Below are positions 2,646 to 51,085 of a stretch of DNA of 64,000 nucleotides, one piece after another (position 1 is the first letter of the stretch; every line of letters starts with the position of its first letter). The DNA is from Sporosarcina psychrophila. GTDB taxonomy: Bacteria; Bacillota; Bacilli; Bacillales_A; Planococcaceae. Below the pieces are notes generated by a model. It did not search any database, was not told the origin of the DNA, and was given only the letters and a program-made list of their open reading frames with translations. Where the stretch lies: assembly GCF_001590685.1 (NCBI RefSeq), contig NZ_CP014616.1, positions 667,501-731,500 of the forward strand, written 5' to 3'. The translations under genes were made by a program, and so were the position numbers.

Positions 2646-2901
2646 TCGTCCGGGAAATAATGAAATCTCGTACTTATGGAGAAATGCTATCTAAGTTAAA
2701 TTATTGAATATGTTATGAAAACAGAGCGCTAGCTTCTTACTGGGAAAGTCGGAGCCAAATGACTATAGGATAGGTGAAGCAGTTAGATTAATGGGGTTGG
2801 GCATACAAAATGCGATATTGAAGGGTTTATTTACTTCAATTTATATAATAACGAAATTCCGTAAATGTACAGGTCTTAATGTAAGTGAGTTATATATATA
2901 T

Positions 2902-3140
2902 GATCGGTTTACGTGTTGAAATGATCGGCTGTGCAGTGGTTATGATTGTTTAGGTGTTGATATGATCGGTTGTGCAATGGTTATGATTGTTTAGGAGTTG
3001 ATATGATCGGCTGTGCAGTGGTTATGATTGTTTACGTGTTGATATGATCGGTCGTGCATTGGTTATGATTGTTTAAATGTTGATATGATCGGTCGTGCAG
3101 TGGTTATGATTGTTTAGGTGTTGATATGATCGGTCGTGCT
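2902..3140 (+). repeat. 41-bp tandem repeat array 1 (GATCGG/ATGATTG type)
   Basis: The word GATCGG starts at 2923, 2964, 3005, 3046, 3087 and 3128, exactly 41 bp apart, with a partial unit at 2902. Midway in each unit lies ATGATTGT, so ATGATYGK-like words alternate every 20 or 21 bp. Because 41 is not a multiple of 3, no frame runs through. The array at 38.1-38.5 kb has the same words in inverted orientation. Confidence 0.92.
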
Positions 3141-4149: not shown

Positions 4150-4162
4150 ATAGAGAGTAAAT

Positions 4163-4367
4163 AGAATCCCCATATATGCTGTGGAATTGGCCGCAGTGTT
4201 TCTACCAGGACACCGTAATGTCCGGACTATGCGGGAAAGCGACTTTCAGGAATTGTAGCGAAAGGTGTGTGGGTACCTATGGGTGCAATCATCTTAACGC
4301 ATATTTCAACGTCCTCGAATGATCTGCTTTTCATGCATATGAAGAGTGGTTTGTTCGAGGACTTTTT
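4163..4367 (+). promoter_or_regulatory. Purine riboswitch (guanine/hypoxanthine class) with terminator
   Basis: The aptamer core GTTTCTACC (4198-4206), CCGTAAT (4213-4219) and GGACTATG (4224-4231) matches the purine riboswitch. The pyrimidine before TATG in GACTATG is C, as in guanine-binding members; adenine binders have U there. The P1 strands are near 4167 and 4236. The expression platform ends in GTCCTCGAA (4311-4319) pairing with TTCGAGGAC (4354-4362) plus five T. High guanine or hypoxanthine should stop transcription before purE. Confidence 0.93.
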
Positions 4368-12477: not shown

Positions 12478-12580
12478 TGATCAAGGCTTGGGCCGGCAGA
12501 AAGCAGGTCATGCAGTCGTTGCGACAGGAAGTCGCGATTTTAGACTGCTATCCTAACATACTAATTGGAGGGTTTTATTC

Positions 12581-15434: not shown

Positions 15435-15814
15435 TTTACGAAACATCCAATCCGATAATAAAGAAAAGGAGGATCGGTAGAATACGTATATAGTCAGCAC
15501 TTAACGAATGGAATGTTCTTCCTGTATCGCTTAGTCGCTTGGTGATGGCCTTACACAATAAGCCCGCCAGAAGAACACTGTCAGTCTTATTGATCCGGCG
15601 CCTGCAGGATGCGGGTGTGCAGCCAAATATTGCCGCAGGACGCGGCAATATTTGGCTGCCTTTCATTAGTGTCGCTTCTTCGCTAGATTTGTTCGTTATA
15701 CGGGTGAAGTATAGCACTTAGTTAATTCCAAATAAGTAGTGCTGAATATATAGTTGAAAAATTTACCAAATTATTTATACTTAAGGTGATGCTTTCCAGA
15801 AAGGTGAAGAGACA
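15435..15814. other. Gene-free spacer with a large perfect hairpin
   Basis: No convincing gene; open frames on both strands look like chance products of GC-rich palindromic sequence. The main element is the 18-bp-arm hairpin at 15619-15659. The sequences CAGCACTTAACG (about 15497) and TAGCACTTAGTTAA (about 15713) near the edges resemble each other loosely. Confidence 0.5.
15619..15659. repeat. Perfect 18-bp inverted repeat (5-nt loop)
   Basis: GCAGCCAAATATTGCCGC, loop AGGAC, then its exact reverse complement. There is no T run on either side, so it is not a standard terminator. It may be the core of a small mobile or REP-like element. Confidence 0.8.
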
Positions 15815-16852
15815 ATGGGTTTGCAATTTACTGGCGTGGAGAAAAGATTAAATGATTCACTCATTTTTCCCGAATTTAACTTACATAGTGGTAGCAATCA
15901 AGTAACGGCAATTTACTCCAGTCTTAATGTACGTAACACGCTTTTACAGATGCTTACAAAGGAGATACCCATTTTAAACGGCGAAATATACATAAATGAT
16001 GTCGAGATTTCAAAGGTGACTCTTTCAGACATCGGTTTTTCATTTCTGAATGAAGGGCTATATGAGCGTTTAACGGTTGCTGAACAGATCAATTTTTACC
16101 GTAAACTTTATAGCGCAGATATATCTACTGCAACGATTTTACGAAAAGTTCACCTTGAAGAGAAGCGAAATGTAAGGATAAAGAAATTATCTTACTCGGA
16201 GCAAAGACGGATCCAATTTGCGAAGCTCCTCATTCAAAATCCTGAGCAGTTCATATTTGAAGAACCCGACCAAAACATCGATATCGAAACACAGCGCGTA
16301 TTAATTATTATGCTGGAAGAGCTACGTGATAAAGGGAAAAGTGTACTAATATTAACGGGGAATATGGAGAGCGCAGTCAATTTAGCGGATAAGGTTTTTA
16401 AGTTGGATGAAAACGGTTTGCATGAAATTCAAATAGCTAGGGAACTTGAAGAGGACATTCCTTCAATTTTGGAAGCGAGCGCTGAAATAGATAAAACAGA
16501 AATACAACCAGTCCGATTTGAAAAAATACCTACGAAGGTAAATGAGAAAATTGTTCTCTTTGATCCACCTGAAATTGATTATATTGAAAGTAACGATGGA
16601 CAGTCTTCACTCCATATTAACGGGGAAGCATTTCCAACTATGTTCACGATGAATGAGCTTGAAGAACGATTGCAGCATTTCGGATTTTTCCGTTGCCATC
16701 GTTCCTATATCGTAAACCTTCAAAAAGTTCGCGAGGTAATTACATGGACACGGAACAGTTACAGTCTCATTCTAGATGATGAAAAAAAGTCGAATATCCC
16801 ACTGTCAAAAACAAAAATGGCTGAATTGAAAGTGATGTTGGTCCTGAAATAA
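15815..16852 (+). CDS. LytTR regulator fused to a degenerate ABC ATPase-like domain
   Basis: 345 aa. Residues ~1-210 follow the ABC ATPase layout but every catalytic motif is eroded: no GxxGxGKST Walker A (SSLNVRNTLL instead), LSYSEQRR in place of LSGGQ, FEEPDQNID in place of LLDEPTSxLD, and Asn where the switch His should be. Residues ~250-345 form a LytTR DNA-binding domain (FDPPEIDYIES, FFRCHRSYIVNL, LSKTKMAELK). It therefore likely binds DNA, perhaps sensing through the dead ATPase-like fold. It stands directly upstream of an ABC ATPase and permease, which it probably regulates. Confidence 0.82.
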   Translation: MGLQFTGVEKRLNDSLIFPEFNLHSGSNQVTAIYSSLNVRNTLLQMLTKEIPILNGEIYINDVEISKVTLSDIGFSFLNEGLYERLTVAEQINFYRKLYSADISTATILRKVHLEEKRNVRIKKLSYSEQRRIQFAKLLIQNPEQFIFEEPDQNIDIETQRVLIIMLEELRDKGKSVLILTGNMESAVNLADKVFKLDENGLHEIQIARELEEDIPSILEASAEIDKTEIQPVRFEKIPTKVNEKIVLFDPPEIDYIESNDGQSSLHINGEAFPTMFTMNELEERLQHFGFFRCHRSYIVNLQKVREVITWTRNSYSLILDDEKKSNIPLSKTKMAELKVMLVLK

Positions 16853-18662: not shown

Positions 18663-19355
18663 CTACTCCGCCTTACAAATCCACCCACCAAACATATTCG
18701 TCGTGAAGAACTTAGCGATGTTCCCAAATCCAGCTTCCCTTAGCAAAAGTACAATCTCCTCTTCAGGAATAAAGGAAAGCTTCCTTACTGTTTTCTCCAT
18801 TTCATTTACCTCTGTTTCAGTTAAATTTGTTGAATCCAACCAGTACGCTTTCCATAGAGCGAATAGCTCATTAAATGAGGGGTCGCTCGGGTTCCCGTAC
18901 ATGGACGCCATAACGAATGGAGCACCAGGTGATAGATGATGTCGGATCTTTTTCAATAGGATCCTTTTTTCATCGATATCTTCAATGAAATGGAGGACGA
19001 GCATACAGGTTGCAGCCCCGAACAGTTTCTCTTCTGTTACATCATCGACAGTTCCTTCGATGAATTCCACACGGTCATCTATCTTCAAGTCAATTGCTTT
19101 CATTCGCGCGAAATCAAGCATTGGTGGTGCGGGATCTACTGCTGTAAATGTCCACGCGGGATTAGTTGGTCCTAACGTAGCAAGTTCATTGCCGCCACCC
19201 GCTCCAATTATCAATACACTTTCTTGTTGTGTTATGTTTGCTCGAAGATAAGCCTGTACAAGTTTGAACATCGAATCGTAGGTAGGCAACGTTCGGCGCA
19301 CTCCTCTGTCATATTCTGCGGCCATCTCTTTATCAAACTGCATCTTGTCGGTCAT
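18663..19355 (-). CDS. Class I SAM-dependent methyltransferase
   Basis: 230 aa. Motif I VLIIGAGGGNELATL near residue 45 and the acidic motif II in AVDPAPPMLDFAR mark a Rossmann-fold methyltransferase, similar to small-molecule methyltransferases of Bacilli. The substrate is unknown. It is transcribed away from ade across an unusual repeat-filled divergent intergenic region. Confidence 0.85.
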   Translation of the reverse strand: MTDKMQFDKEMAAEYDRGVRRTLPTYDSMFKLVQAYLRANITQQESVLIIGAGGGNELATLGPTNPAWTFTAVDPAPPMLDFARMKAIDLKIDDRVEFIEGTVDDVTEEKLFGAATCMLVLHFIEDIDEKRILLKKIRHHLSPGAPFVMASMYGNPSDPSFNELFALWKAYWLDSTNLTETEVNEMEKTVRKLSFIPEEEIVLLLREAGFGNIAKFFTTNMFGGWICKAE

Positions 19356-19792
19356 TTTATCAAATCCAATCGATTGTAATACTATACTATTTCGTCAAAA
19401 GGTGTCGGAACCCTTTTACTGAGGAAAGGTTCGCAACGTATCTCTGAAAGTAAACAACGCGCTACGTAAACTAAACAACAAAGTTGAGAAAGTATGCAAC
19501 GTATCAAGAATTATGCAACGTATCTCCAGAAGTAAACAACACACCGCGTAAACTAAACAACAAAGTTGAGAAAGCATGCAACGTATCAAGAAGTTCGCAA
19601 CGTTACCTCAAAAGTAGACAACAGAATATCAAAAGTTAACAACGTTCAGTGTAAACTTCACAACGCCCGCCTCAATATGAACTCCTCGTTTGTCCGAAAT
19701 AACAAAAAATGTCTACCGAACTCCCTATTTATTTCCTCAATGCTATGCTACGATAAATAGTATGAATAGTTCAGTTAAAGGGAGAGTGTATC
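19356..19792. other. Divergent intergenic region filled by a phased repeat array
   Basis: 437 bp between the methyltransferase and ade. About 19430-19670 is the CAAC array. About 19680-19780 holds the ade promoter region and the GGGAGAG ribosome binding site. No gene. Confidence 0.7.
19430..19668 (+). repeat. Phased repeat array 3 (CAAC word every ~20.6 bp)
   Basis: The word CAAC starts at 19434, 19455, 19476, 19497, 19516, 19537, 19558, 19579, 19598, 19619, 19640 and 19661. The spacings are 21, 21, 21, 19 repeated, so an 82-bp higher-order unit (twice 41) recurs. Recurrent flanks are TATGCAACGTATC and GTAAACAAC. The sequence is unrelated to arrays 1 and 2 but the period is the same. Confidence 0.9.
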
Positions 19793-21511
19793 ATGTGGGA
19801 GCCTAAAGAAATAAAAGACCAACTACATATGATCGACGGCAAGAAGGCGCCGGACCTCATTATTACTAATGCAGAATATTTACATTCAATCTATAAAAAA
19901 TGGGTGACAGGCAACATTTGGATTGCTGGCGATCGGATTGTGTACGCCGGGAAGGAAATGCCGGTAATGACAGAAGGCGCCGAAATCTTCGATGCTACAG
20001 GGAAGAAAATTGTTCCTGGTTATATTGAACCGCATGTTCATCCGTTTCAATTGTACAACCCGCGGACGTTTGCAGATTATGCATCGCGGCTTGGGACAAC
20101 GACATTCATTTCGGATAATCTTATATTATTCATGTCTCTTGATAACGAAACATCGTTTGGGCTGCTTGATGAGTTAAATAAATTACCGTTTTCATTTTAC
20201 TGGTGGGCACGGTTTGATTCACAGACGATTCTACAGAAGGAGGCTGAATTGTTTAATCTAGCTTCTATTAAAGAGTGGATTGAACGTCCAGAAGTATTGG
20301 TGGGCGGAGAGTTGACGGGTTGGCCACGGCTCATGACAGGGGAACCCAATATGGTCGCCTCTGTAAATGCTGCAAAAATAGGGGGCAAGAAAATAGAAGG
20401 GCATTTCCCTGGTGCCTCTGAGCGGACGTTGGCACGGATGCGTCTTCTTGGAACAGACGGTGATCATGAAGCGATGACGATAGAAGAGGTAGAGGCACGG
20501 CTACTGCACGGGTATGGAGTGACCCTACGCTATTCATCCATTCGTCCGGATCTTCCACATTTATTAAAAGACATTGTTGCCAAAGAATTAAATGTGTTTG
20601 ATCACTTGATGATGACGACGGACGGATCGACGCCTTCATTTCACCTCGATGGCGTAATGGATAAATGTATCCGTGCTGCGCTTGAAGCGGGGGTTCCGCC
20701 AATTGATGCATACCAGATGGCATCTTATAACGTTGCGCGCTATTATGATATGACCGATTTACACGGATTCATTGCGACAGGTCGTTTTGCAACGCTAAAT
20801 ATTCTGGAGGATGAGTACAATCCAGTGCCGACGGATGTTTTATCCAAAGGAAAATGGTTGAAACGTGAAAATGAATCGACGGAACCTTTCCCAACCATTG
20901 ATTGGTCGTTTGTTGAAGCGTTCGCACCGAATTTCGAACTTGATGAATCGGATTTCATATTTGACAATCCGGTTGGTATCGAAATGCTTAACGATGTCAT
21001 TACAAAACCGTATAATGTGACGATTGACACAAAGGTCGATAAACTTGCGGATGATCACGATGAAAGTTTCCTTATGCTTCTCGATAGAAATGGAAAATGG
21101 CATGTCAATACAATTATTAAAGGGTTCGCAACAGGAATTCAAGGCTTTGCGTCTTCGTATTCAAATACAGGGGATATTATCTTAATCGGCAAAGATAAAA
21201 AAGAAATGCACAATGCCTTTAAGGAAATTAAACGAATCGGTGGCGGTATGGTGCTCTCGGAAAACGGTGGTATCGTCGCGACTCTTCCACTGGCAATCGG
21301 TGGCGGTTTATCGGCAGAACCGGTTCAAAAATTGATTGAGCAGGAGATAGAATTGAAAAAGGCACTGGCAGATCGTGGTTACACGAAAGGCGATGCAGTC
21401 TATACGTTGCTTTTCTTGCAATCAACACATTTACCGTACATACGCATCACACAGATGGGGCTGTACGATGTTATGAAAAAAGAAATGATTGTTCCGGTAA
21501 CCGGAAGATAG
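19793..21511 (+). CDS. yerA: Adenine deaminase-like amidohydrolase (YerA family)
   Basis: 572 aa. Amidohydrolase layout: an N-terminal DLIITNAEY sheet, metal site EPHVHPF near residue 80, a central TIM barrel with MTTDG (metal Asp) and a C-terminal adenine-deaminase domain (GGGMVLSENG, LPLAIGGGLS). YerA of Bacillus is annotated as a putative adenine deaminase and holds the same place after the purine genes. If active it converts adenine to hypoxanthine for salvage, which matters here because purB, needed for adenylate synthesis, is missing locally. Confidence 0.88.
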   Translation: MWEPKEIKDQLHMIDGKKAPDLIITNAEYLHSIYKKWVTGNIWIAGDRIVYAGKEMPVMTEGAEIFDATGKKIVPGYIEPHVHPFQLYNPRTFADYASRLGTTTFISDNLILFMSLDNETSFGLLDELNKLPFSFYWWARFDSQTILQKEAELFNLASIKEWIERPEVLVGGELTGWPRLMTGEPNMVASVNAAKIGGKKIEGHFPGASERTLARMRLLGTDGDHEAMTIEEVEARLLHGYGVTLRYSSIRPDLPHLLKDIVAKELNVFDHLMMTTDGSTPSFHLDGVMDKCIRAALEAGVPPIDAYQMASYNVARYYDMTDLHGFIATGRFATLNILEDEYNPVPTDVLSKGKWLKRENESTEPFPTIDWSFVEAFAPNFELDESDFIFDNPVGIEMLNDVITKPYNVTIDTKVDKLADDHDESFLMLLDRNGKWHVNTIIKGFATGIQGFASSYSNTGDIILIGKDKKEMHNAFKEIKRIGGGMVLSENGGIVATLPLAIGGGLSAEPVQKLIEQEIELKKALADRGYTKGDAVYTLLFLQSTHLPYIRITQMGLYDVMKKEMIVPVTGR

Positions 21512-38050: not shown

Positions 38051-38598
38051 AAGAGAGCAGACGTCGATTGTGGCGTCTGTTTTTTGTTGGTGATCGGTAG
38101 GCGGGCGTATGTGGGTGCGAACCGATCATATAAGAAGGCAATCAGTCATAAGCGTGTGCGAACCGATCATAAAAAAGTAGGCAACCGATCGTAAGCGTGT
38201 GCTGACCGATCATAAAAGTTGGTAGCCAATCATAAGTGCGTGCGAACCGATCATAAAAGTAGGCAACCGATCGTAAGCGTGTGCTGACCGATCATAAAAG
38301 TTGGTAGCCAATCATAAGTGCGTGCTGACCGATCATATATGTAGGCAATCGATCATAAGTGTGTGCTAACCGATTATAAAAGTAGGCAACCGATCATAAG
38401 TGTACACTGACCGATCATATAGGTTAGTTTACCGATTATATGGGTGGACCAACCGAGCATATACAAGTGCCGACTAGCCAAACAAAATCTACTCCCGCAG
38501 TAAAGTACATGTTTTGTCTAATAGATGCCCACGCGACATCTGTTTTTTCACCCTCAGCATGGTAAACTAAAGACATCTGAAATTTGGAGGAAAATATA
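38051..38598. other. Intergenic region dominated by repeat array 2
   Basis: 548 bp without a gene. A short hairpin (CAGACGTCGATTGTGGCGTCTGTTTTTT, 38058-38086) terminates cydABS; the repeat array follows to about 38465. About 38470-38598 holds the leader and GGAGG site of rlmCD. Confidence 0.75.
38092..38465 (-). repeat. 41-bp tandem repeat array 2 (CCGATCAT/CAATCAT type)
   Basis: About 17 copies of a CCGATCATA-like word spaced alternately 20 and 21 bp (for example at about 38251, 38271, 38292, 38312, 38333, 38353, 38374, 38394, 38415), so the full unit is 41 bp. Spacers such as AAGTAGGCAA and AGCGTGTGCTGA alternate. Reverse complemented, the words are those of array 1 at 2.9 kb. Confidence 0.92.
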
Positions 38599-50829: not shown

Positions 50830-51085
50830 AACGCAAAAAAGCAACAACAAGGGCTCGTTGTTGCAGTAGAAATAATAAATTATTTCTTTGCATAAGATAG
50901 CCCTCCATATAGTTTCCTATATGACAATTCTGTGTTTATTCAACACAGAACCAGCTTCAAGAAAATGAGATTCTCTCCACTTCGGCAAATTCCCCTTTCC
51001 ACAAATGTCACAGGATCTCATCATCCTCCACGTGTGTACTGATGGTCTTTGCGCCTCTATCCTTACTTCAAAATTTTTGAAATAA
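50830..51085 (-). promoter_or_regulatory. Lysine riboswitch (L box) with terminator, controlling dapA
   Basis: On the minus strand the core AGAGGCGCAAAGACCATCAG, then GGAGGATGATGAGATCC and GAAAGGGGAATTTGCCGAAG match the L-box consensus. The platform ends in GCAACAACGAGCCCTTGTTG with TTGC and a T run (50866 down to 50833). Lysine should terminate transcription before dapA. Confidence 0.92.

Follow-up and report, generated by a model that had tools for sequence, protein, structure and literature searches.

Short-word intergenic repeat arrays with a two-turn step, mostly oriented with replication, in a Sporosarcina chromosome

Introduction

Interspersed direct repeats are known from the intergenic regions of Firmicutes. 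STAR elements of Staphylococcus (PMC3532100) consist of a 14-bp GC-rich word, T(G/A/T)TGTTG(G/T)GGCCC(C/A), separated by locus- and lineage-specific spacers of about 40–44 bp; their loci expand and contract, the last 'anchor' spacer is distinct and conserved, and they had no assigned function when reviewed in that paper, the main text of which never uses the word 'orientation'. Plasmid iterons (PMC4980987) are direct repeats of 17–22 bp, present in 3–7 copies at one plasmid origin, and bound cooperatively by a replicon-specific protein; separation by half a turn abolishes cooperativity and each replicon has its own word. RemA of Bacillus (PMC8481266) is a ring-forming, DNA-wrapping protein which binds poorly conserved repetitive DNA with a period of about 10 bp at a few matrix promoters. 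Finally, LytTR-domain regulators bind 9-bp direct repeats 12 bp apart, i.e. with a period of about 21 bp, and their operators usually contain two sites.

The region analysed here (the window) is a 64 000-nucleotide stretch, bases 667501–731500 of the single-contig 4,674,191-bp genome of Sporosarcina psychrophila (NZ_CP014616.1). A previous sequence-only reading had described in it twelve CAAC sites with a repeated 21, 21, 21, 19 spacing, filling a divergent promoter region, and had proposed that these, together with two other arrays, suggest a class of phased intergenic arrays, to be tested for a common DNA-binding protein or for curvature. As in STAR elements, a conserved word is separated here by locus-specific spacers and the end unit is conserved, but the word (8–9 bp) and the step (20–21 bp) differ from those of STAR, several words occur per genome, units alternate in dyads, orientation follows replication, and several locations are shared between species whereas STAR locations differ. 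As in iterons, the repeats are in helical register (460 of 469 steps are 20 or 21 bp in one word family), but they form tens of scattered chromosomal arrays of up to about 28 units, with no initiator gene among the neighbours scanned and no match in plasmid records. Our literature searches, in a partial library, found no description of this class other than the STAR and iteron parallels.

Results

The CAAC array

The described array was confirmed. The main features of the window are as follows:
19434–19681 (+), array C: 12 units, word roughly AAAGTNNRCAAC, step 21,21,21,19 (82-bp super-unit), CAAC on the leading strand of this replichore
2898–3139 (−), array A: word ATGATCGG, reverse complement CCGATCAT, the latter word being on the minus strand, 41-bp dyads, just downstream of an rRNA operon (5S at 1899–2014)
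38111–38462 (+), array B: word CGATCATA, 20/21-bp steps, after a cytochrome bd subunit II gene and before an RNA methyltransferase gene
18663–19355 (−), gene flanking array C: SAM-dependent methyltransferase (Methyltransf_12/25), divergent from the next gene
19793–21511 (+), gene flanking array C: adenine deaminase-like amidohydrolase
19723–19765 (+), block upstream of the deaminase gene (CTATTTATTTCCTCAATGCTATGCTACGATAAATAG), conserved in all six species aligned; inferred promoter role

CAAC occurs at 19434, 19455, 19476, 19497, 19516, 19537, 19558, 19579, 19598, 19619, 19640 and 19661, with spacings of 21,21,21,19,21,21,21,19,21,21,21, and the 82-bp super-unit was also found by TRF. The pattern CAAC-N15-17-CAAC-N15-17-CAAC is found 10 times, whereas 100 dinucleotide shuffles gave a mean of 0.10 and a maximum of 2.

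A genome-wide class of arrays

We expected that, if the arrays form a class, further examples with the same period would be found in the genome or in its relatives, and this was the case. Pattern searches of the window genome found 147 CGATC triples (none with the reversed-pattern control) and 159 CAAC triples (for which the control is uninformative since CAAC read backwards is CAAC); reversed controls were also zero for CGATCATA, TATTTGCG and CGCTCAAGA. Chance is rejected by the shuffles and by these zero controls. From these searches and from 20-kb samples, 51 arrays were catalogued, a lower bound since the catalogue is not exhaustive, in three main word families: CGATCATA (35 arrays), CAAC with NAA after and AAGTGT before (11) and CAACTT..TTCTAAT (5). 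A fourth word (ACAGTTTG; CCCTNACAGTTTG at 3,541,783) recurs in genome G014. A CAA-rich stretch at 1253042–1253225, probably a glutamine-rich coding repeat, mimics CAAC periodicity by chance and was excluded. A word-blind autocorrelation of a 464-kb sample showed a repeated excess only at lags 20/21, 40–42, 61/62, 82, 103 and 123, the rest being one masked N-run and isolated hits at lags such as 24 and 66; five of the arrays it found are in the 400 kb sampled without regard to arrays.

A related array pattern occurs only in Sporosarcina records among about 85 000 genomes. The strict CGATCATA triple is present in 5 of 37 genomes of the genus (89, 72, 13, 10 and 1 hits) and in none of 24 genomes of other families. 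Samples of other congeners (designated by G numbers) nevertheless contain arrays of the same step with other words: AATCGGTGGTAA, GAGTTCTC, GGTCCATT, ATNATCGATAA and CGCTCAAGA in G063; TTGCTTGCACTC in G005; GGTCATAA and GATCGATAA in G064; AAGTGCTCATAA in G007 and G020; GAGTTTACA in G015; and GCGACYAATC (core GCGACYAAT) in G006, upstream of the same gene as array C. G063, although small (3.25 Mb), is array-dense, with about seven arrays of several different words in one 20-kb stretch and 334 CGCTCAAGA triples genome-wide. A second genus (g42) has TATTTGCG arrays in all five species examined (7 to 34 matches each), with 170 triples in one of its genomes, G081 (control 0). No such peak was seen in a 400-kb sample of eight other families, although genera other than g42 were sampled with at most 20 kb per genome, so that absence there is not established. 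Similarly, the G006 word GCGACNAAT was absent from 151 family genomes, but G006 itself was not in that draw, so this says little. The word families may be drifted forms of one motif (leading-strand CGATCATA, CGCTCAAGA, CGCAAATA, CCAACGAA), but this is suggestive only.

Step, spacers and turnover

In the CGATCATA family, 460 of 469 single steps are 20 or 21 bp and longer gaps mostly stay in register (41, 62, 82, 123, 205). The mean step is 20.43 bp for CGATCATA, 20.64 for CAAC, 19.93 for the TTCTAAT family, 20.0–20.2 for CGCTCAAGA and 21.0 for arrays of G027. The earlier proposal that the loss of 2 bp every fourth site restores helical phase near 10.3 bp per turn is not a general rule, since sister arrays run at exactly 20, exactly 21, alternating 20/21 or 21-21-21-19 bp; the step is two helical turns with tolerance, and strict rephasing at 10.3 bp per turn is not supported.

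Across 34 CGATCATA arrays the word is 91–100% conserved at its eight positions while the positions outside it are weakly conserved (units were picked by part of the word, so its inner positions are high by construction). Adjacent spacers are unrelated (identity 0.35) but alternate ones match (0.71), which indicates growth by two-site modules; the same dyad appears in g42 and G006, though not in the CGCTCAAGA arrays of G063. The words of 8–9 bp and the spacers of 11–13 bp, which repeat within an array, do not fit a CRISPR array (repeats of about 24–40 bp with unique spacers of similar length).

The C locus was read in relatives using the deaminase gene, which had matches in all 41 genus genomes searched. 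The six-species alignment shows an empty site in G064 (which retains the conserved block), a decayed remnant in G031, four to six units in G002, G009 and G027, and twelve in the window genome after duplication of an 82-bp block. At three other orthologous loci (3743992 against E16_8/G002; 4185968, near pyrG, against G027; 3346765 against G009) word, step and terminal unit are kept and internal spacers replaced, so arrays may grow from one side. A conserved word under spacer turnover is what recognition by a protein predicts.

Orientation relative to replication

GC skew places the origin of the window genome near 0 and the terminus near 2.4 Mb. Array orientation matches the replichore in 43/51 cases (binomial P = 7e-7), in 15/16 arrays between convergent genes and in 4/4 where both flanking genes oppose the fork; array A is one of the eight exceptions. 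It should be noted that the sign of orientation was set per family and that, tested family by family (Fisher tests), significance was reached for CGATCATA (P = 0.0019) but not for CAAC (P = 0.054) or TTCTAAT (P = 0.2). In G081, where skew gives an independent origin near 1.0 Mb and a terminus near 3.0 Mb, all 16 loci in one half carry TATTTGCG on the plus strand and all 4 in the other half on the minus strand (20/20 loci; 1/4845 by our count). G063 agrees at the places checked, CGCTCAAGA being on the plus strand at 1.5 Mb (skew +) and on the minus strand at 2.7 Mb (skew −).

Genomic context

The arrays are almost all intergenic. Of 50 arrays with both flanks called (genes were called by a simple ORF rule), 28 lie between co-directional, 16 between convergent and 6 between divergent genes, a modest enrichment in convergent gaps (16/50 against 27/164 gaps, P = 0.025); the divergent position of array C is therefore not typical of the class. 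The 30 neighbours scanned are varied housekeeping or metabolic genes, such as those for CTP synthase (pyrG), methionine synthase (metE), an RNase HII-family protein, a DEAD helicase, a class A PBP, mscL and murJ, and no common function was seen. Searches for a plasmid or phage origin returned no match.

Discussion

The sequence-only reading was correct as to the array itself: number of sites, spacing and 82-bp super-unit are exactly as it described. Its interpretation is partly supported: a class of phased intergenic arrays is strongly supported, in two genera, but a common binding protein was not found, strict helical rephasing at 10.3 bp per turn is not supported and a promoter role is not supported for the class, most arrays lying between co-directional or convergent genes. 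Replication polarity and spacer turnover were beyond its reach.

The explanation we favour, with moderate confidence, is that each array is a polar row of direct-repeat binding words, one per two helical turns, on which copies of an unidentified sequence-specific DNA-binding protein would sit side by side on one DNA face as a directional nucleoprotein rod of 100–1000 bp. In this view the word is what is recognised and the 11–13 bp between words are free to change; arrays would appear in intergenic DNA, grow by duplication of two-site (40–42 bp) or four-site (82 bp) modules, and be kept in a fixed orientation relative to the passing fork. The most likely job would then depend on replication direction, for example a one-way roadblock or insulator between fork and transcription, or a directional chromosome mark, rather than control of the neighbouring gene. 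The arrays, their step, word conservation with spacer turnover, their polarity and their recurrence with other words rest on the analysis, whereas the protein and its binding, the filament and the fork-related role are inferred. Several points weigh against this view: no binding protein was identified, eight of 51 arrays point the other way, long arrays cannot all keep one strict helical phase since steps of exactly 20 and exactly 21 bp both occur, and orientation-dependent stability of the repeats could give polarity without function. A bolder and more tentative possibility is that bacteria of the Sporosarcina family carry a chromosome-wide, fork-oriented marking system, in which lineage-specific proteins form polar rods on the arrays and the protein–word pair has been swapped repeatedly while step and replication polarity stayed fixed.

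What is added to the known kinds of interspersed intergenic direct repeats is a set of measurable constraints: a two-turn step independent of the word, a two-site growth module, spacer turnover under a conserved word, and orientation tied to replication even between convergent genes. These point to a DNA-bound polar protein structure and make function testable. If fork polarity reflects function, it would be a sequence-directed link between replication direction and chromosome layout that is not KOPS, Chi or Ter.

Among the alternatives, the one which survives best, though we consider it unlikely, is that the arrays are functionless minisatellites: short seeds would spread into single-stranded lagging-strand gaps and grow by slippage, one orientation being more stable. 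The clear growth by duplication of 40/41/82-bp modules, the variable array size between species at one locus and the orientation with the fork are in agreement with it. However, neutral growth does not explain why the 8–9-bp word stays near-invariant across more than 30 loci and several species while the rest of the unit randomises, nor why the step is always 20–21 bp whatever the word.

Less likely still is that each array is an upstream operator cluster for its neighbours, as the divergent position of array C suggests. Array C does lie upstream of the methyltransferase gene and of the conserved, promoter-like block before the deaminase gene, but only 6 of 50 arrays lie in divergent gaps, the neighbours are unrelated, and polarity follows the fork even between convergent genes.

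Binding by LytTR regulators is similarly doubtful and a lead for one word only. The ACAGTT word, CCCTNACAGTTTG, found at steps of about 20–21 bp in the window genome and in G014, resembles LytTR sites, and LytTR genes are present in 55 of 61 genomes searched (5 in the window genome, 8 in G014). One of them (15815–16852, +) lies 2.6 kb from array C, and LytTR matches also sit about 3 kb upstream of the deaminase gene in G002 and G031. However, most words (CGATCATA, CGCTCAAGA, TATTTGCG) do not look like LytTR sites, gene counts (mostly 1–8) do not track the number of words or arrays, and arrays of 10–28 sites are far longer than LytTR operators. RemA is excluded, since no PF04025 match was found in the window genome or in G002, G005, G006, G007, G014, G063, G064, G081, G099 or G115, i.e. 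in any array-bearing Sporosarcina or g42 genome tested, whereas the Bacillus subtilis control was positive; RemA is present in several other Bacilli checked, but G018, G073, G078 and G037 lack it too.

A role as transcribed RNA elements is very unlikely although many arrays lie just downstream of genes, since both strands of array C fold worse than shuffles (z +2.1 and +2.3), as expected of non-palindromic repeats, no Rfam family matches any of the three arrays of the window, and polarity follows the fork, not the genes, in convergent and head-on settings. Rfam matches elsewhere in the window are a purine riboswitch (4150–4249, +) and a lysine riboswitch (50890–51067, −), and two Bacillaceae-1 sRNA family matches lie 3 kb apart (12493–12559 and 15601–15670, −).
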